From contig CAKSWL010000117.1 of NCBI GenBank assembly GCA_934511335.1, positions 1 through 6,721 of the forward strand: 6,721 nt of DNA, in the 5' to 3' direction. This DNA comes from an uncultured Cloacibacillus sp. (GTDB lineage: Bacteria > Synergistota > Synergistia > Synergistales > Synergistaceae). The first letter of the stretch is position 1, and each line of letters starts with the position of its first letter. Below are positions 1 to 6,721 of this stretch, piece by piece. The notes under the pieces were generated by a model. It was not told the origin of the DNA. It was given only the letters and a program-made list of their open reading frames with translations, and made no database searches. A program made the translations under genes and the position numbers.

Positions 1-740
1 GTATAGACGTATTCAAACGAACAGTGCATGCAGCGTTCGCACCGCTCCTGGCGGACGCGAAGACTCTTTATGCCCTTTGCGCCGATCACGACGATCTCCC
101 CTGGTTCCACGTCGCGCAGCAGCCTCGCACCGACGATGTCCAGCGCGCAAGATTCCGAGGCGGCGTAATAGGTGCCGCCGCGTTCGCCGATTACGAGCGG
201 CTTGAAGCCGTAGGGGTCGCGGGCTGCGACGAGCGCGTCTTTCAGCAGCACGGCGATGGCGTAGGAGCCTTCGAGCTTCTTGAGAGCGTCGACGAGCGCG
301 TCGATCGGCTGCATGTGCGATTTCTGAGCCATCATGTGAAGGATGGCCTCGGAGTTCGTGGCGGACTGGAAAATCGCGCCGCGCTGTTCCAGCTGACGCG
401 TGAGCTCCGCGAGGTTCGTGACGAGCCCGTCGTGCGCGATGGCGACGGGGCCGCGCGCGTAATTCGCGCAGATCGGCAGGACGTTCTGAAGCTGTGAGCT
501 CTCTAAGGGAACGTAGCGCACGTGCCCGATCGCGCAGTTTGCGTTCTCGTCCGCAAGGCGCTGCTGGTCTATCGCGTTATGGAGCAGCCCCATGCCGCGC
601 ACGGAGGCGACGTGGCCGCTCTCGGCCCAGGCGATGCCCGCCGACTCCTGCCCACGGTGCTGGAGCGCGTAGAGCCCCAGGTAGACCTCTTCAAGGACTG
701 GTTTGTTTAAAGTGCTGTAGGCGCCGAAGATTCCGCTCAT
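1..740 (-). CDS. purF: PurF paralog (amidophosphoribosyltransferase-like) with degenerate glutaminase site, partial at the window edge
   Basis: This is the N-terminal 246 codons of a second PurF-like protein; the C-terminal phosphoribosyltransferase half lies beyond base 1. It aligns gap-free with the upstream PurF over about 219 residues, roughly 54% identical by hand count. HRGQES (28-33), GHVRY (72-76), RDPYGFKPL (174-182), ASESCALDI (194-202) and RDVEPGE (209-215) are kept. The glutaminase site is not: the N-terminus reads MSG instead of MCG (nucleophile Cys to Ser2), HNG has become HDG (Asp104), the glutamine-binding Asp is Asn129, and the T-A-G after HVRY is P-L-E. There are no stops or frameshifts. 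A CxxCxxC (Cys234/237/240) sits where the first Fe-S ligand Cys of Bacillus-type PurF lies. The start is fixed because purC's TAA is in frame three codons upstream. The gene lies 6 bp after purC with only a poor Shine-Dalgarno, so it is probably translationally coupled. I infer no glutamine hydrolysis; ammonia-dependent or regulatory function is possible. Confidence 0.5.
   Translation of the reverse strand, partial: MSGIFGAYSTLNKPVLEEVYLGLYALQHRGQESAGIAWAESGHVASVRGMGLLHNAIDQQRLADENANCAIGHVRYVPLESSQLQNVLPICANYARGPVAIAHDGLVTNLAELTRQLEQRGAIFQSATNSEAILHMMAQKSHMQPIDALVDALKKLEGSYAIAVLLKDALVAARDPYGFKPLVIGERGGTYYAASESCALDIVGARLLRDVEPGEIVVIGAKGIKSLRVRQERCERCMHCSFEYVY
135..162. repeat. Direct repeat shared by the two purF genes, copy 1
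   Basis: These 28 bases match 2290-2317 with one mismatch (position 150 against 2305). Both encode the conserved SESCALDI segment of PurF. This is a remnant of gene duplication or strong codon conservation, not a mobile element. Exchange here could make a chimeric purF and delete purC. Confidence 0.7.
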
Positions 741-746
741 GGCCCT

Positions 747-1460
747 TTATGCGGAAATTCTCTTCCAAATCTCTTCGTATGCTCCGAGTACGTCTCCGAG
801 GTCTTTGCGGAAGCGGTCCTTGTCAAGGTGGTCGCCCGTCGAGCTGTCCCAGAAGCGGCAGGTGTCGGGCGATATCTCGTCGGCCAAGATAAGGTTGCCC
901 TGCATGTCTTTGCCGAACTCAAGCTTAAAGTCGACGAGCACGACGCCCTTCTTCGCGAAGTAATCCTTAAGTATTTCGTTGACGCGCAGCGAGGTGGATT
1001 TGATCTTATCGAGCTCTTCCTTCGTAGCCCAGCCGAATAGCAGCGCGTGGTCTTCGATGATGAAGGGGTCGCCGAGCGCGTCGTCTTTGTAGCACATCTC
1101 GAAGAGCGGGCGGGAAAGCACCTTGCACTCTTCGACGCCGAGGCGTTTGCAGAGTGAACCGGTGGTGATGTTGCGGACGATGACCTCAAGCGGCACGATC
1201 TTGACGCGCTTGACGATCTGGTTTGTCTCGTCTATCTGTTCGACGAAGTGGGATTCGACGCCGTTGTCGGCGAGCAGCTGGAAGAGCTTTGAGGATATCT
1301 TGTTGTTGAGCACGCCCTTGCCGCTCATCGTCGCCTTTTTCAGGCCGTTGAAGGCGGTGAAGCTGTCCTTATACTCGACGATCACGTAGTTCGGGTCTTC
1401 GGTGGTGTAGAGCCTCTTCGCCTTGCCTTCGTAGATAAAATCTTTTTTTGTCAGATTCAT
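747..1460 (-). CDS. purC: Phosphoribosylaminoimidazole-succinocarboxamide synthase (SAICAR synthetase)
   Basis: The enzyme joins aspartate to CAIR using ATP to give SAICAR, step 8 of IMP synthesis, in the cytosol. The 237-residue product is the usual length for bacterial PurC. Family signatures are present in order: YEGKAKRLY near residue 10 (ATP site), the SGKG and NNKIS stretch, PLEVIVRN in the middle, LVDFKLEFG and ADEISPDTCRFWD in the C-terminal half. The reading frame is open 24 codons further upstream. I chose the internal ATG at 1458-1460 because a GGAGG lies 10 bases upstream (1471-1475) and because MNLTKKDFIYEGKAK matches where family members begin. It follows purF after a 61-bp gap, the only sizeable gap in the operon, and is followed after 6 bp by the purF paralog. 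Nothing in the protein looks unusual. Confidence 0.97.
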   Translation of the reverse strand: MNLTKKDFIYEGKAKRLYTTEDPNYVIVEYKDSFTAFNGLKKATMSGKGVLNNKISSKLFQLLADNGVESHFVEQIDETNQIVKRVKIVPLEVIVRNITTGSLCKRLGVEECKVLSRPLFEMCYKDDALGDPFIIEDHALLFGWATKEELDKIKSTSLRVNEILKDYFAKKGVVLVDFKLEFGKDMQGNLILADEISPDTCRFWDSSTGDHLDKDRFRKDLGDVLGAYEEIWKRISA

Positions 1461-2898: not shown

Positions 2899-5049
2899 CT
2901 ATTTTCCCCCCGTGAAGGCCATTTTGAGCTCCTCAAGGGACAGCGTGAAAAGGTCTCCCCAGCAGAAGTCTTTACCTCCGGCTTTGCCCGCTTTGACGCA
3001 GGAAAAGCCTTTCCAGGCCTCTTCAAAGGCCGCTGCCTTTTCGGGAGCCACCGCGTAAAGGGCGCGCGCGCCGCCCTCGGAGAAGAGGAGCGCCTCGACG
3101 GTGCTATGGGGGGTGAGTGCGATACGCATGCCCAGGCCGGAGGCGATCGCCTCGTTCGCGAGAGCCGCAGCCAAGCCGCCCCCGGCGACGACGCGTCCGG
3201 AATCGGCAAGCTGCCGCCGCGCCGTCTCAAGCGCGCGGCGGCGGAAGGCTTTTTCGGCTTCACGGTCGGGGGCGGCCGTCTTGCCGAGCGGTCTGCCGTC
3301 CTTCGCCTGCTGGTAGCGCGTCGCGCCCAGCGAGCCCTCGAGTGAGCCGACCACATAGATGAAGTCGCCCTCCGCCGTCCGTCCCGCGCGTATCATCTTG
3401 TCGCGGTCGACGACGAGCCCGGCGGCGACGACGAGCGGCGTCGGATAGATGCGGTCCGTCGCCGTTTCGTTGTATAGGCTTACGTTGCCCGAGACGACGG
3501 GGCAGTCAAGGTCGCGGCAGGTATCGGCTAGGCCGCGCAGTGATTCTTTAAGCTCGTAGAATTTTTCCGGTGCTTCGGGCGAGGCGAAGTTGAGGCAGTT
3601 CGTCATGCCGAGCGCGTCCGCGCCCGTGAGCCAGAGGCCGCGCAGCGAGAGCGCCATCGCCTCCGAAGCTCCCGTATAGGGGTCGGTCCAGCACTTGTAG
3701 GGCTCGGCCTCCATCGTCAGGACGCAGGCGCGGCGCGTGCCGGGAACTTCGACGATCGCCGCCGGCTCGCCGGGGCCCGCGATCGTGTGGAGCTGGACCA
3801 TCGAGTCGTACTGCTCCCAGATGGCGTTCTTGCGGCGGCCGTTGGGGCAGGAGAGCATCTCCAGGAGATCCTTCGCCGGGTCGGCGCTCGCGAGCTTGGA
3901 AAGGTCGATTGCCTGCCGTGCGGGAAGATCTTTCGGTTCCGCAGAGGGCCAGATCACCTCGGGCGTGTCTCCGAGGATCGAGGTCGGCAGCTCCGCTTCG
4001 AGCACGCCGTTTTTGTAGACGCGGTAGAGTTTGCTGTCCGTCATCGTGCCGACGATCGCGCAGTCGAGGCCGTAGTGATTGGCCATCGCGAAGACCGGTT
4101 CGAGCTTTTCCTCTTCGACGATGAGAAGCATGCGCTCCTGCGATTCTGAGAGGAATATCTCCCAGGGCCGCATGTCGGCTTCGCGCAGGGGGATTTTTTC
4201 TACCTGGATGTCTATGCCGCAGCCGCTCTTGTGGGCGATCTCGCTGGAGGACGAAAGGATCCCCGCGGCTCCCATGTCCTGCATCGAGGCGATGAGGTCC
4301 TTGTCTAAAAGGTCCATGCAGCACTCGATGAGGAGCTTTTCTTCAAAGGGGTCGCCGATCTGGATCTGCGGCTTGCTGGCCTTGGAGTCTTCGTCCAATT
4401 CGCGCGAGGCGAAGGAGGCGCCGGCGATGCCGTCGCGGCCAGTCTTTGAACCGAGCAGCACCGCGTAGTCTCCCGGATTCGCCGTCTGGGAGCTCGCCAT
4501 TTTGTCGAGGCGCACGAAGCCGGCGCTGAAGGCGTTTACGAGCGGGTTGTCGTTGTAGCAGGGGGAATAGAAGGTCTTGCCGCCGACGATCGGCACGCCT
4601 ACCGCGTTGCCGTAAGCGCCGATGCCCTCGACGATCCCCTTCGCGAGGTTCTGCGTCTTGCGCAGCGAGGCGTCTCCGAAGAAAAGCCCGTCCATCGAGA
4701 CGGAGGGGCGCGCGCCCATCGCGATGATGTCGCGGATTATGCCGCCGACTCCCGTAGCCGCTCCCTGAAAGGGCGCGACCGCGGAGGGGTGGTTGTGGCT
4801 TTCGACCTTGAAGGCGAAGCCCCAGCCCTCGCCCATATCGACGACGCCTGCGTTTTCGCCCTGTCCCTGAAGCACGTATTTCCCCTTGGAGGGGAAGGTG
4901 CGCAGCAGCGGGCGCGTCGATTTATAGCTGCAATGCTCGGACCACATGACGCCGATGAGCTCGAGCTCAAGGTTGTTCGGCTCGCGGCCGAGCAGCTCTA
5001 TTATCCTCTTATATTCCGACTCTGAGAGTCCTACTTCACGAAAGCCCAT
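2899..5049 (-). CDS. purL: Phosphoribosylformylglycinamidine synthase, PurL subunit (short type)
   Basis: This is the synthetase subunit that converts FGAR, ATP and ammonia to FGAM (step 4), using ammonia supplied by PurQ with PurS as the bridging subunit. At 716 residues it is the short Bacillus/Thermotoga type rather than the roughly 1300-residue fused proteobacterial PurL. Visible signatures are MWSEHCSYKS with His39, VESHNHPS at 82-89 followed by the glycine-rich GAATGVGGIIRD, SMQDMGAAG in the middle, and TNCLNF and VVSGNVSLYNET in the second AIRS-like half. The ATG overlaps the purQ stop by one base (TAATG), and AGAGGA lies about 10 bases upstream, which fixes the start. The last codons contain a G-run that may serve as the purF ribosome binding site. 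The protein appears complete with no missing motif. Confidence 0.98.
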   Translation of the reverse strand: MGFREVGLSESEYKRIIELLGREPNNLELELIGVMWSEHCSYKSTRPLLRTFPSKGKYVLQGQGENAGVVDMGEGWGFAFKVESHNHPSAVAPFQGAATGVGGIIRDIIAMGARPSVSMDGLFFGDASLRKTQNLAKGIVEGIGAYGNAVGVPIVGGKTFYSPCYNDNPLVNAFSAGFVRLDKMASSQTANPGDYAVLLGSKTGRDGIAGASFASRELDEDSKASKPQIQIGDPFEEKLLIECCMDLLDKDLIASMQDMGAAGILSSSSEIAHKSGCGIDIQVEKIPLREADMRPWEIFLSESQERMLLIVEEEKLEPVFAMANHYGLDCAIVGTMTDSKLYRVYKNGVLEAELPTSILGDTPEVIWPSAEPKDLPARQAIDLSKLASADPAKDLLEMLSCPNGRRKNAIWEQYDSMVQLHTIAGPGEPAAIVEVPGTRRACVLTMEAEPYKCWTDPYTGASEAMALSLRGLWLTGADALGMTNCLNFASPEAPEKFYELKESLRGLADTCRDLDCPVVSGNVSLYNETATDRIYPTPLVVAAGLVVDRDKMIRAGRTAEGDFIYVVGSLEGSLGATRYQQAKDGRPLGKTAAPDREAEKAFRRRALETARRQLADSGRVVAGGGLAAALANEAIASGLGMRIALTPHSTVEALLFSEGGARALYAVAPEKAAAFEEAWKGFSCVKAGKAGGKDFCWGDLFTLSLEELKMAFTGGK

Positions 5050-5762
5050 TAGAGTGCACTCCTCTTTGCAAAGTCTTGTGCGATCGAACGCCAGAAATCT
5101 CCGCCGTCGGTGCCGCCGTTGAGATGCGCGACCGTCGAGCGCTCGGGGTGCGGCATGAGGCCTAAGATGTTTCCCTCTTTATTACAGATGCCGGCGATGC
5201 CGTTGAGCGCGCCGTTGGGCGCGTACTCGGCTCCCGCCATGCCAGTCTTCGGGTCCGCGTAACGGAAAACTACCCGCCCTGCCTCTTCAAGCTCGCGGAG
5301 CTCCGCCGGCGGCAGGAAGTAAAGTCCCTCATGGTGCGCGATCGGATACTGGACGATGTCGCCCTTTTTGAAGCCGGAGGTGAACGGGGTCTCCGTCTGC
5401 TCGACGCGCATCCAGCATTTTTTGCAGATGAACGTGGTGCTGGTGTTCGCCAGCAGCGCGCCGGGTAAGAGCTTGGCCTCCGTCAGCACCTGGAAACCGT
5501 TGCAGATGCCGAGCAGCAGTTTTCCGGCTTCCGCGTGCCGCCTCACCGCTTCAATGATCGGCGAGCGCGCGGCCATCGCGCCCGAACGCAGATAATCCCC
5601 GTAGGAAAAGCCTCCGGGGAGGATGACGAGATCCGGTGCTGAAGCGAATTCACGCTCTTCATGCCAGACCATATCCACTGGCGTCTTTAATGTCTCGGCG
5701 ACGGCGCGCTGAACGTCGCGGTCGCAGTTGCTTCCGGGAAAAACGACGACGGCGGTTCTCAT
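5049..5762 (-). CDS. purQ: Phosphoribosylformylglycinamidine synthase, PurQ glutaminase subunit
   Basis: This class I glutamine amidotransferase hydrolyses glutamine and passes ammonia to PurL in the PurS/PurQ/PurL complex. The 237-residue product has FPGSNCDRD near the N-terminus, the LPGGFSYGDYLRSGAMA stretch (about 48-64), the nucleophile Cys87 in LLGICNGFQVL, and the catalytic His205 and Glu207 in MPHPER. The triad is complete, in contrast to the degenerate glutaminase of the second PurF in the same operon. The frame is open 22 codons further upstream into purS, but MRTAVVVFPGSNCDRD is the family N-terminus, so I use the ATG at 5760-5762. That start lies 2 bp after the purS stop, with GGGAAG as a modest Shine-Dalgarno. 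The stop overlaps the purL start by one base. Confidence 0.97.
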   Translation of the reverse strand: MRTAVVVFPGSNCDRDVQRAVAETLKTPVDMVWHEEREFASAPDLVILPGGFSYGDYLRSGAMAARSPIIEAVRRHAEAGKLLLGICNGFQVLTEAKLLPGALLANTSTTFICKKCWMRVEQTETPFTSGFKKGDIVQYPIAHHEGLYFLPPAELRELEEAGRVVFRYADPKTGMAGAEYAPNGALNGIAGICNKEGNILGLMPHPERSTVAHLNGGTDGGDFWRSIAQDFAKRSAL

Positions 5763-5764
5763 CG

Positions 5765-6016
5765 TTAAGCTTCCCGCACCGATATCTTGTAGGTCTCTAT
5801 CAGGTCGTTGGCCAGAAGGTCCTGACACATATTTTTCACAGCTTCCGCCGCCGCGTCGCAGTCGGCGGCCTCGAGCTGCATCGTAACTATGCGTCCGACG
5901 CGCACTTCGCTAAGGCCCGCATAGCCGAGGCGAGTCAGCGTCTTTTCTACCGCCTTGCCCTGTGTGTCCAGAACTCCCTCGCGTGGGGTGATAACGGCCT
6001 CTGCATGAAAAATCAT
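5765..6016 (-). CDS. purS: Phosphoribosylformylglycinamidine synthase, PurS subunit
   Basis: This is a small structural subunit that bridges PurQ and PurL in FGAM synthase of organisms with short PurL. The 83-residue product has the usual size. It carries the pattern of the family: an N-terminal strand (AEAVITP), the G(V/I)LDxQGKAVEKTLxxLG helix (about 14-31), then VRVGRIVTMQLEA and a C-terminal ANDLIETYKISV segment. It is the first gene of the operon. A strong AAGGAGG lies 10 bases before its ATG, and a near-consensus promoter lies about 70-95 bases upstream. Its place directly before purQ and purL, and their short type, support the assignment. I see nothing abnormal in it. Confidence 0.95.
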   Translation of the reverse strand: MIFHAEAVITPREGVLDTQGKAVEKTLTRLGYAGLSEVRVGRIVTMQLEAADCDAAAEAVKNMCQDLLANDLIETYKISVREA

Positions 6017-6083: not shown

Positions 6084-6112
6084 AATATAGCGCTCATACT
6101 ATTGAATGTCAA
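6084..6112 (-). promoter_or_regulatory. Predicted sigma-70-type promoter of the pur operon
   Basis: Minus strand: -35 TTGACA (6112-6107, a perfect match), a 17-bp spacer, then -10 TATATT (6089-6084, one mismatch). The predicted start is near 6077, giving a leader of about 60 nt before purS. The elements lie in AT-rich intergenic DNA and point into the operon. Confidence 0.85.
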
Positions 6113-6147
6113 TGATGCGGCAGTTCAAAAAAATTAAAGACAAAAAA

Positions 6148-6177
6148 TTGACTCTATATCATCAAAAAAAGTATAAT
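6148..6177 (+). promoter_or_regulatory. Predicted sigma-70-type promoter of the substrate-binding protein gene
   Basis: Plus strand: -35 TTGACT (6148-6153, one mismatch), an 18-bp spacer, then -10 TATAAT (6172-6177, a perfect match). The predicted start is near 6184, leaving a leader of about 45 nt. The -35 elements of the two divergent promoters are 35 bp apart, so a protein bound between them could affect both. Confidence 0.85.
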
Positions 6178-6228
6178 AATATGCAGGACGAAATGTTTGT
6201 TCCTAAAACAAGGGAGGTAGATGTGATT

Positions 6229-6721
6229 ATGAAACTGAGTAAGCGTACCGTCGTTGCCGTGATGTTCGTTTTTTGCACCGCTCTCTTTGTTGCGACCGCG
6301 GCTTTTGCCGCCGAAGAGATTAAAATAGGCGCCCTATTCCCGCTGACCGGCCCCGCGGCCGTCTCGGGACAGAACTGCGTGAACTCCGTCCTCGCGGCGG
6401 CCGACGTCATCAACAAGAACAACCCTGACATTAACGCGCCCCTTGCCACCGGAGAGGGACTTCTCGGCGGAAAATACGTCATCAAAGTAGTGCCCGCTGA
6501 CCATCAGGGCAAGCCCGACGTCGCCAAGTCCGAGGCCGAACGCCTCTATAATCAGGAGAAGGTCTTCGCAATCATCGGATGCTACAACAGCGCCGCCACT
6601 AAGCCGGCCAGCGCCGTCGCCGAACGCGCGAAGAAGATTTTCATGTGCGGCTGTTCGAGCTCCGCGGCGCTGACGGAGCGGGGCTACAAGTATTTCTTCC
6701 GCCACGCACCGACCGACGCCA
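6229..6721 (+). CDS. ABC transporter substrate-binding protein, LivJ-like (periplasmic binding protein type 1), partial at the window edge
   Basis: This is the N-terminal 164 codons of an exported solute receptor of the branched-chain amino acid/amide family, which would deliver ligand to a membrane ABC importer. Residues 1-27 form a Sec signal peptide: KLSKR, a hydrophobic core, then AFA before AEE, so signal peptidase I cleavage after 27 is likely. There is no lipobox, so the mature protein is probably free in a periplasm. The mature start, EIKIGALFPLTGPAAVSGQ, and IIGCYNSAAT with Ser121/Thr124 (a ligand-contact position in this family) are typical. Four Cys occur in the visible mature part (50, 118, 140, 142), more than usual. 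GGGAGG at 6212-6217 fits the ATG at 6229 (spacing 11) or a GTG at 6223 (spacing 5, two extra residues). The true ligand cannot be read from the sequence; amino acids are most likely by family. The gene is divergent from the purine operon. Confidence 0.92.
   Translation, partial: MKLSKRTVVAVMFVFCTALFVATAAFAAEEIKIGALFPLTGPAAVSGQNCVNSVLAAADVINKNNPDINAPLATGEGLLGGKYVIKVVPADHQGKPDVAKSEAERLYNQEKVFAIIGCYNSAATKPASAVAERAKKIFMCGCSSSAALTERGYKYFFRHAPTDA

Follow-up and report, generated by a model that had tools for sequence, protein, structure and literature searches.

The question raised by this locus is why the pur operon of an uncultured Cloacibacillus sp. should encode, beside an ordinary PurF (PurF1), a second PurF (PurF2) with Ser in place of the nucleophilic Cys, and from where such an enzyme could take its nitrogen. 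The window, which is the whole stretch of DNA analysed here (6,721 nucleotides), contains most of the operon on the minus strand in the order purS, purQ, purL, purF1, purC and the start of purF2, with the following features.

1–740, minus strand: purF2, the paralog without Cys; N-terminal 246 residues, the rest lying past the window edge
735–737, minus strand: codon of Ser2 (AGC), replacing the nucleophile Cys of PurF
501–512, minus strand: VPLE (residues 77–80) in place of ATAG in the glutamine loop after HVRY of PurF2
429–431, minus strand: Asp104 of PurF2, in place of the oxyanion Asn
354–356, minus strand: Asn129 of PurF2, in place of the glutamine-binding Asp; not conserved across the family
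21–23, minus strand: Cys240 of PurF2, retained, at the position which we take to be the first Fe-S ligand
747–1460, minus strand: purC, whose stop lies 6 bases ahead of the purF2 start codon
1522–2895, minus strand: purF1, an ordinary PurF with MCG, HNG and the ATAG loop
2899–5049, minus strand: purL, small type
5049–5762, minus strand: purQ, with GICNGFQ intact
5765–6016, minus strand: purS, the first gene of the operon in the window

A divergent gene on the plus strand (6106–6720), cut by the window edge, encodes the N-terminal part of a substrate-binding protein of a branched-chain amino acid ABC transporter. An Rfam search of the window gave no match reaching the gathering score.

A sequence-only reading of this DNA had described PurF2 as an intact frame, about half identical to PurF1, aligning with it without gaps and changed selectively at the glutaminase site. 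The purF2 frame (minus-strand ORF 3–740) is open for all 246 codons up to the window edge, and MAFFT gave an identity of 53% across the shared part of the two proteins and a gap of one residue close to position 233, because of which the description as gap-free is valid for the glutaminase core but not beyond it. Ser2, Asp104 and the VPLE loop were found at the positions given by that reading and were then followed in an alignment of 23 PurF2 rows, window included. Both Ser at the nucleophile position and Asp at the oxyanion position (HDG) were invariant (23/23), leaving PurF2 without the N-terminal Cys and the HNG of a glutamine-dependent PurF, and Thr78 and Gly80 of the ordinary glutamine loop occurred in 0/23 rows, a pattern much too consistent to be due to chance. 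Asn129 had been listed with these changes; its codon is where it was placed, but it is not a family trait, as 13 of the 23 rows have Asp and 10 have Asn. The glutamine-binding Arg75 was kept in 21/23 rows (Ser in G013 and G145; genomes are referred to by such numbers) and Tyr76 in 19/23, with Tyr76Cys in the other four. The strict conservation of Asp104 may point to a function beyond the loss of glutaminase activity. In PurF1, Cys was present in 21 and the oxyanion Asn in all of the 22 rows, among which PurF1 of G004 is not counted.

In the phosphoribosyltransferase (PRT) half, all the scored PRPP, PPi and flexible-loop positions and three Fe-S cysteines of PurF2 (the count covers all but the second Fe-S Cys) were intact in every covering row (22 or 23), and the PRPP motif, PPi loop and flexible loop of PurF were complete in all 22 ortholog rows reaching this region. 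The window ends ahead of this half, and its integrity, on which the claim of a functional gene had been made to depend, was read from orthologs: 12 of the 13 found first were full length with DDSIVRGTT and the flexible loop, and the 13th ended at a contig edge. The three database proteins closest to the window PurF2 (95% identity) likewise have Ser and Asp, and VIVDDSIVRGTT was intact in two of them. The earlier proposal that the gene is under selection agrees with dN/dS values of 0.027–0.106 in six close PurF2 pairs. By domain, the median dN/dS was 0.098 (37 pairs) for the Gln domain and 0.057 (27 pairs) for the PRT domain. The ratio of Gln-domain to PRT-domain divergence was 1.28 (column bootstrap 1.03–1.59) for PurF2, 0.94 (0.75–1.17) for PurF1 and 0.95 (0.80–1.12) for single-copy PurFs, and the PurF2 to PurF1 ratio of domain divergence was 1.37 (1.14–1.67). 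The predicted structure of the PurF2 ortholog of C. evryensis (P0198) was a complete PurF fold (pLDDT 85.9; residues 312–321 of the flexible loop below 50) with TM scores of 0.84–0.87 to B. subtilis PurF structures 1ao0 and 1gph, 1ao0 being the best. PurF2 resembles ordinary PurF (1ao0/1gph of B. subtilis and 1ecb of E. coli) in its predicted whole fold, PRPP site, Fe-S cysteines and operon; what sets it apart is that the Cys nucleophile is missing, the oxyanion Asn is replaced by Asp and the glutamine loop is rebuilt.

The distribution of PurF2 was monitored in 185 Synergistota genomes, of which 154 gave a PurF match at 1e-60. PurF2 was found in 22/185, and 21 of these 22 also have PurF1, which bears Cys in 20 genomes and Ser in G140. 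A contig scan for purF2 gave 13 loci with 69–85% identity, titled Synergistaceae or Synergistes (11), Candidatus Caccocola (1) and Euryarchaeota (1); all 13 have the MSG start and HDG, and a PurF1-type gene was present in each of their genomes. The same Ser and Asp were common to all orthologs read, as the sequence-only reading had anticipated. By source names, the carriers include Cloacibacillus evryensis, C. porcorum and Synergistes jonesii. The purF1–purF2 pair was located on one contig, 745–850 bp apart, in 19/21 genomes (the spacing was also taken from G008, which is outside the phylum set) and on two contigs in G007 and G140, and purC was confirmed between the two genes in the window and in the seven genomes checked (G002, G006, G013, G137, G141, G142 and G169). 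One contig (G161:C78) has two PurF genes with equal scores in opposite orientation, which is likely an assembly duplication.

The PurF start could be read in 122/185 genomes (75 by pattern and 47 more added). A Cys-less PurF was present in 24 of the 122, comprising the 22 with PurF2 together with G146 (Gly) and G178 (Ala), and no Cys-bearing PurF was found in four. In the G145 assembly, whose completeness is not stated, PurF2 was the only PurF found, and it lies on a 132-kb contig with the order purS-purQ-purL, 458 bp and then purC-purF2-purM-purN-purH-purD-purE. The 458-bp gap is at the place that purF1 occupies in other genomes, and a search for a PurF1 remnant in it gave nothing except a 9-residue chance match (E 0.13). 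The sole PurF found in G146, an assembly likewise of unstated completeness, has Gly2 and Asp for the oxyanion Asn and is encoded in the order purC-purL-purF-purM-purN-purH with no purQ between, purH meeting the contig end. This Gly2 type of PurF recurs in two more protein clusters (94% and 90% identity), and Asp104 is present in all three Gly2 clusters. Gly2 as an assembly error was rejected because three distinct clusters carry it. G140 has Ser in both PurFs and so no Cys-bearing one, yet PurQ, GuaA and PyrG are kept in this genome. In G178, again with assembly completeness not stated, the only PurF found has Ala2 with HNG kept, falls in a cluster of 48 member sequences and is adjoined by purL, M, N, H, D and E. 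Both operonic purC and purQ are missing in G178, only a divergent PurC being present elsewhere, and its PurF may therefore be part of a decaying pathway.

Other glutamine-using enzymes were then compared with the state of PurF. Family searches (PurQ and GuaA) gave matches in 14/14 control genomes, and PurQ was found in 22 of the 24 genomes searched, the two without it being G146 and G178. Across the phylum PurQ was found in 158/185 genomes, and therefore its absence also occurs outside these two; it was missing in 10 of the 122 genomes with the PurF start read, and the eight other than G146 and G178 have a Cys-bearing PurF. The glutaminase motif of PurQ or of its PurL-fused form matched in 151 genomes, and among the 149 listed, which were read by eye, the only ones without Cys were G145, with Ser, and G013, with Ala; the 34/185 genomes with no match may include enzymes that deviate elsewhere in the motif and escape the scan. 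The motif absence in G025, G026, G028 and G029 was only apparent, as GICNGFH with Cys is present in them. The pur loci of Synergistota are split into those with a small PurL and a separate PurQ and those with a large PurL (~1200 residues) with a fused glutaminase domain.

Among the 62 genomes that matched the PyrG motif, Cys was lacking in just two, G145 with Ser and G146 with Gly, and PyrG is intact in G013 and G178; here also enzymes deviating elsewhere in the motif escape the scan, which gave no match in 123/185 genomes. GuaA was read in 26 genomes (25 of the 28 searched and G142), and Cys was changed to Gly in G145 and G013. GuaA of G178 (L219/L296) keeps Cys and has FLPE for FHPE, that is, Leu for the catalytic His, and therefore its glutaminase triad seems broken at His. 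The only GuaA found for G146 (L235, G146:C66) has Cys. Contig G146:C66 is short, carries a GlmS fragment, glutamine synthetase and GuaA of clostridial appearance, and is probably a contaminant. The nucleophile of GlmS was kept in all 16 readable starts (17 loci), G145 and G013 included, GlmS of G146 being a fragment and that of G178 lying outside the sample; GlmS is not known to use free ammonia. Fisher tests of having no Cys-bearing PurF against a dead or missing PurQ and against PyrG gave p 0.003 and p 0.004, respectively, both made after the pattern had been seen and with kinship ignored. A Cys-bearing PurF1 is still present in G013. The closest relatives of the window, G141 (C. evryensis) and G142, have PurQ, GuaA and PyrG intact and so would continue to use glutamine. 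A missing glutamine synthetase as the driver of these losses was rejected, as a glutamine synthetase match was found in 24/24 genomes, and reassigned or generally lost Cys codons were rejected because the Fe-S cysteines of PurF and the nucleophile of GlmS are retained. A class I glutaminase search showed no CarA-like protein in G145, G013, G146, G178 and G140, and one each in G142 and G180; carbamoyl phosphate synthesis may also have changed in the first five, or these assemblies may be incomplete.

All 23 rows of the PurF1 clade on the tree belonged to PurF2-bearing genomes or to the window. PurF2 groups among the Synergistota PurFs in trees made without archaeal PurF′ (see below), and PurF1 and PurF2 as nearest sisters were neither supported nor rejected (AU p 0.369). 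When glutamine-site columns were left out, at least three changes of Cys were needed, these being in PurF2 together with the G146 clade, in G178, which is nested among Cys-bearing relatives, and in G140 PurF1. A single shared loss of Cys in PurF2 and the G146 clade appears favoured by the support of 94/84 without these columns, which is below the tool's star, and the G146 clade is the probable sister of PurF2; the alternative grouping of G146 with G135 was not firmly rejected (p 0.096). Placement relative to PurF1 and PurF2 applies to the single-copy genomes on the tree. G145 and G013 are sisters, and therefore their glutaminase losses may be one event.

From the residues lost and kept and from the relatives, we infer with a probability of roughly two in three that PurF2 is a PRPP aminotransferase which makes phosphoribosylamine from free ammonia and not from glutamine, and that some relatives have gone further in this direction. 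The PRTase half of PurF2 would take up dissolved ammonia, which, according to a review, is what E. coli PurF does when its Cys1 is exchanged. In cells with both copies, PurF1 could draw on glutamine while ammonia is in short supply, and PurF2 could be used once the fermentation of amino acids yields ammonia in abundance, which would save the ATP otherwise spent by glutamine synthetase. Since PurQ, GuaA and PyrG are kept in the closest relatives, the ammonia route there would be additional and not exclusive. Some relatives would be further along, as only a Cys-less PurF was found and the nucleophile of PurQ, PyrG or GuaA is lost too. Point losses of the nucleophile thus affect enzymes of unrelated classes where a Cys-less PurF was the only one found, with GlmS spared where it was read; the best explanation for this is that ammonia has taken over from glutamine as the donor of nitrogen, and the suggestion of an ammonia-dependent PurF made from the window finds support in the same pattern. 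The wider proposal that this lineage switched nucleotide synthesis to ammonia by a stepwise disarming of the glutaminase in those of its amidotransferases that can use ammonia (PurF, PurQ, GuaA and PyrG) while sparing GlmS, the window showing the first step in which an ammonia-fed PurF was added, is one we hold with about even confidence.

The same function was already proposed in 2011 for PurF′, a Cys-less PurF of Crenarchaeota, and the surprising part here is the parallel loss across four enzymes. In its accessible text, PMC3261824 describes PurF′ as a PurF paralog without the N-terminal Cys, located close to purF and other pur genes, names, as one possible function still to be tested, that of an ammonia-dependent PRPP aminotransferase, and reports that E. 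coli PurF with Cys changed to Ala or Ser can still use ammonia; exogenous ammonia is usable by most amidotransferases according to the part of a review that was available (PMC10526850). PurF2 likewise lacks the N-terminal Cys and has purF1 and other pur genes as its neighbours, and Mlab_0150 of Methanocorpusculum labreanum is like it in having Ser at the nucleophile position (PMC3261824, accessible text). PurF′ differs in being archaeal and in having Ala or Val at this position in many cases, whereas PurF2 falls among Synergistota PurFs. Genomes with only a Cys-less PurF and losses in other glutaminases occur in some Synergistota, and the same accessible text carries no such report for archaea. 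Carbamoyl phosphate synthetase 1, as described in the available part of PMC4655335, is also a former amidotransferase that takes ammonia and keeps a dead glutaminase domain with Ser for the catalytic Cys; it differs from PurF2 in its class I triad, its occurrence in animals and its reaction and fold, and its use of ammonia is established whereas that of PurF2 is inferred. For bacterial single-domain NAD synthetases, the authors of PMC3376133 conclude, in the portion at hand, that free ammonia is the amide donor in vivo; these enzymes have no glutaminase domain, whereas PurF2 keeps an altered one. The archaeal case was the only one found in a literature search for Cys-less PurF or wide glutaminase loss, a search whose coverage takes in few subscription papers.

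Among the other explanations, the one that survives best, and which we consider unlikely, is that PurF2 is a subunit of mixed oligomers, in which PurF1 would contribute regulation or glutaminase activity, while PurF2 would add further PRTase sites or a means of allosteric control. The two genes are in one operon and co-inherited, the altered glutaminase domain of PurF2 is retained whole, and the identity between the window PurF1 and PurF2 makes a mixed assembly conceivable. However, only a Cys-less PurF was found in G145 and G146, and PurF1 keeps all the scored PRTase residues except one Tyr-to-Phe, and therefore there is no clean division of labour. These genomes also weaken the regulatory-subunit alternative of the sequence-only reading, which has some chance left where both copies occur. 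It is improbable that the acceptor which PurF2 joins to PRPP is some other amine than ammonia and that Asp104 belongs to a new site for it. The presence of Asp104 in every PurF2 row and in each Gly2 cluster is more than drift gives, but purF2 stays in the pur operon, G145 has PurF2 as its only PurF found along with purD, N, L, M, C, E and H, and purN, M, L and C were confirmed in G146 with purH meeting the contig end. A decaying duplicate without function, to which the glutamine-site drift (Arg75Ser in two rows and Tyr76Cys in 4/23) could be ascribed, is very improbable, as no full-length ortholog read has an interrupted frame, dN/dS values are low, conservation of the PRTase half is higher in PurF2 than in PurF1, and every PurF1-clade genome on the tree still has PurF2. 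Other Ntn hydrolases in which Ser or Thr is the nucleophile give a precedent for Ser2 as a nucleophile with which PurF2 would still hydrolyse glutamine. This was found to be the least credible of all, as the oxyanion Asn and the glutamine loop have changed too, related proteins have Gly or Ala at that position, and the accessible text of PMC3261824 reports E. coli PurF with Cys changed to Ser to be without detectable glutamine activity.

If the ammonia-fed reading of PurF2 is true, these genomes would provide living examples of a PurF that supplies the whole purine pathway from ammonia, as was suggested in 2011 for PurF′ of archaea. They would also show how organisms that ferment amino acids and are surrounded by ammonia could come to do without glutamine as a source of nitrogen. 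The best reading of the glutaminase residues across the phylum would be that certain Synergistota have moved gradually towards making nucleotides with free ammonia. The truncated window piece of PurF2 scored 207.6 bits with TIGR01134, under the cut-off of 350, and P0198 scored 452.9 bits, above it. TIGR01134 thus labels PurF2 as an ordinary amidophosphoribosyltransferase, and therefore metabolic models would carry the wrong nitrogen donor if this reading is true. The named carriers Cloacibacillus evryensis and C. porcorum make it testable. Two PurF1 proteins were peculiar at the glutamine site. G013 PurF1 has an odd glutamine loop (HVRHVTEG), and G006 PurF1 (L145, 6701, plus strand) keeps Cys2 and has ALNG for AHNG (His103Leu), its glutamine loop also being rebuilt, which gives the impression of decay in the copy that uses glutamine.
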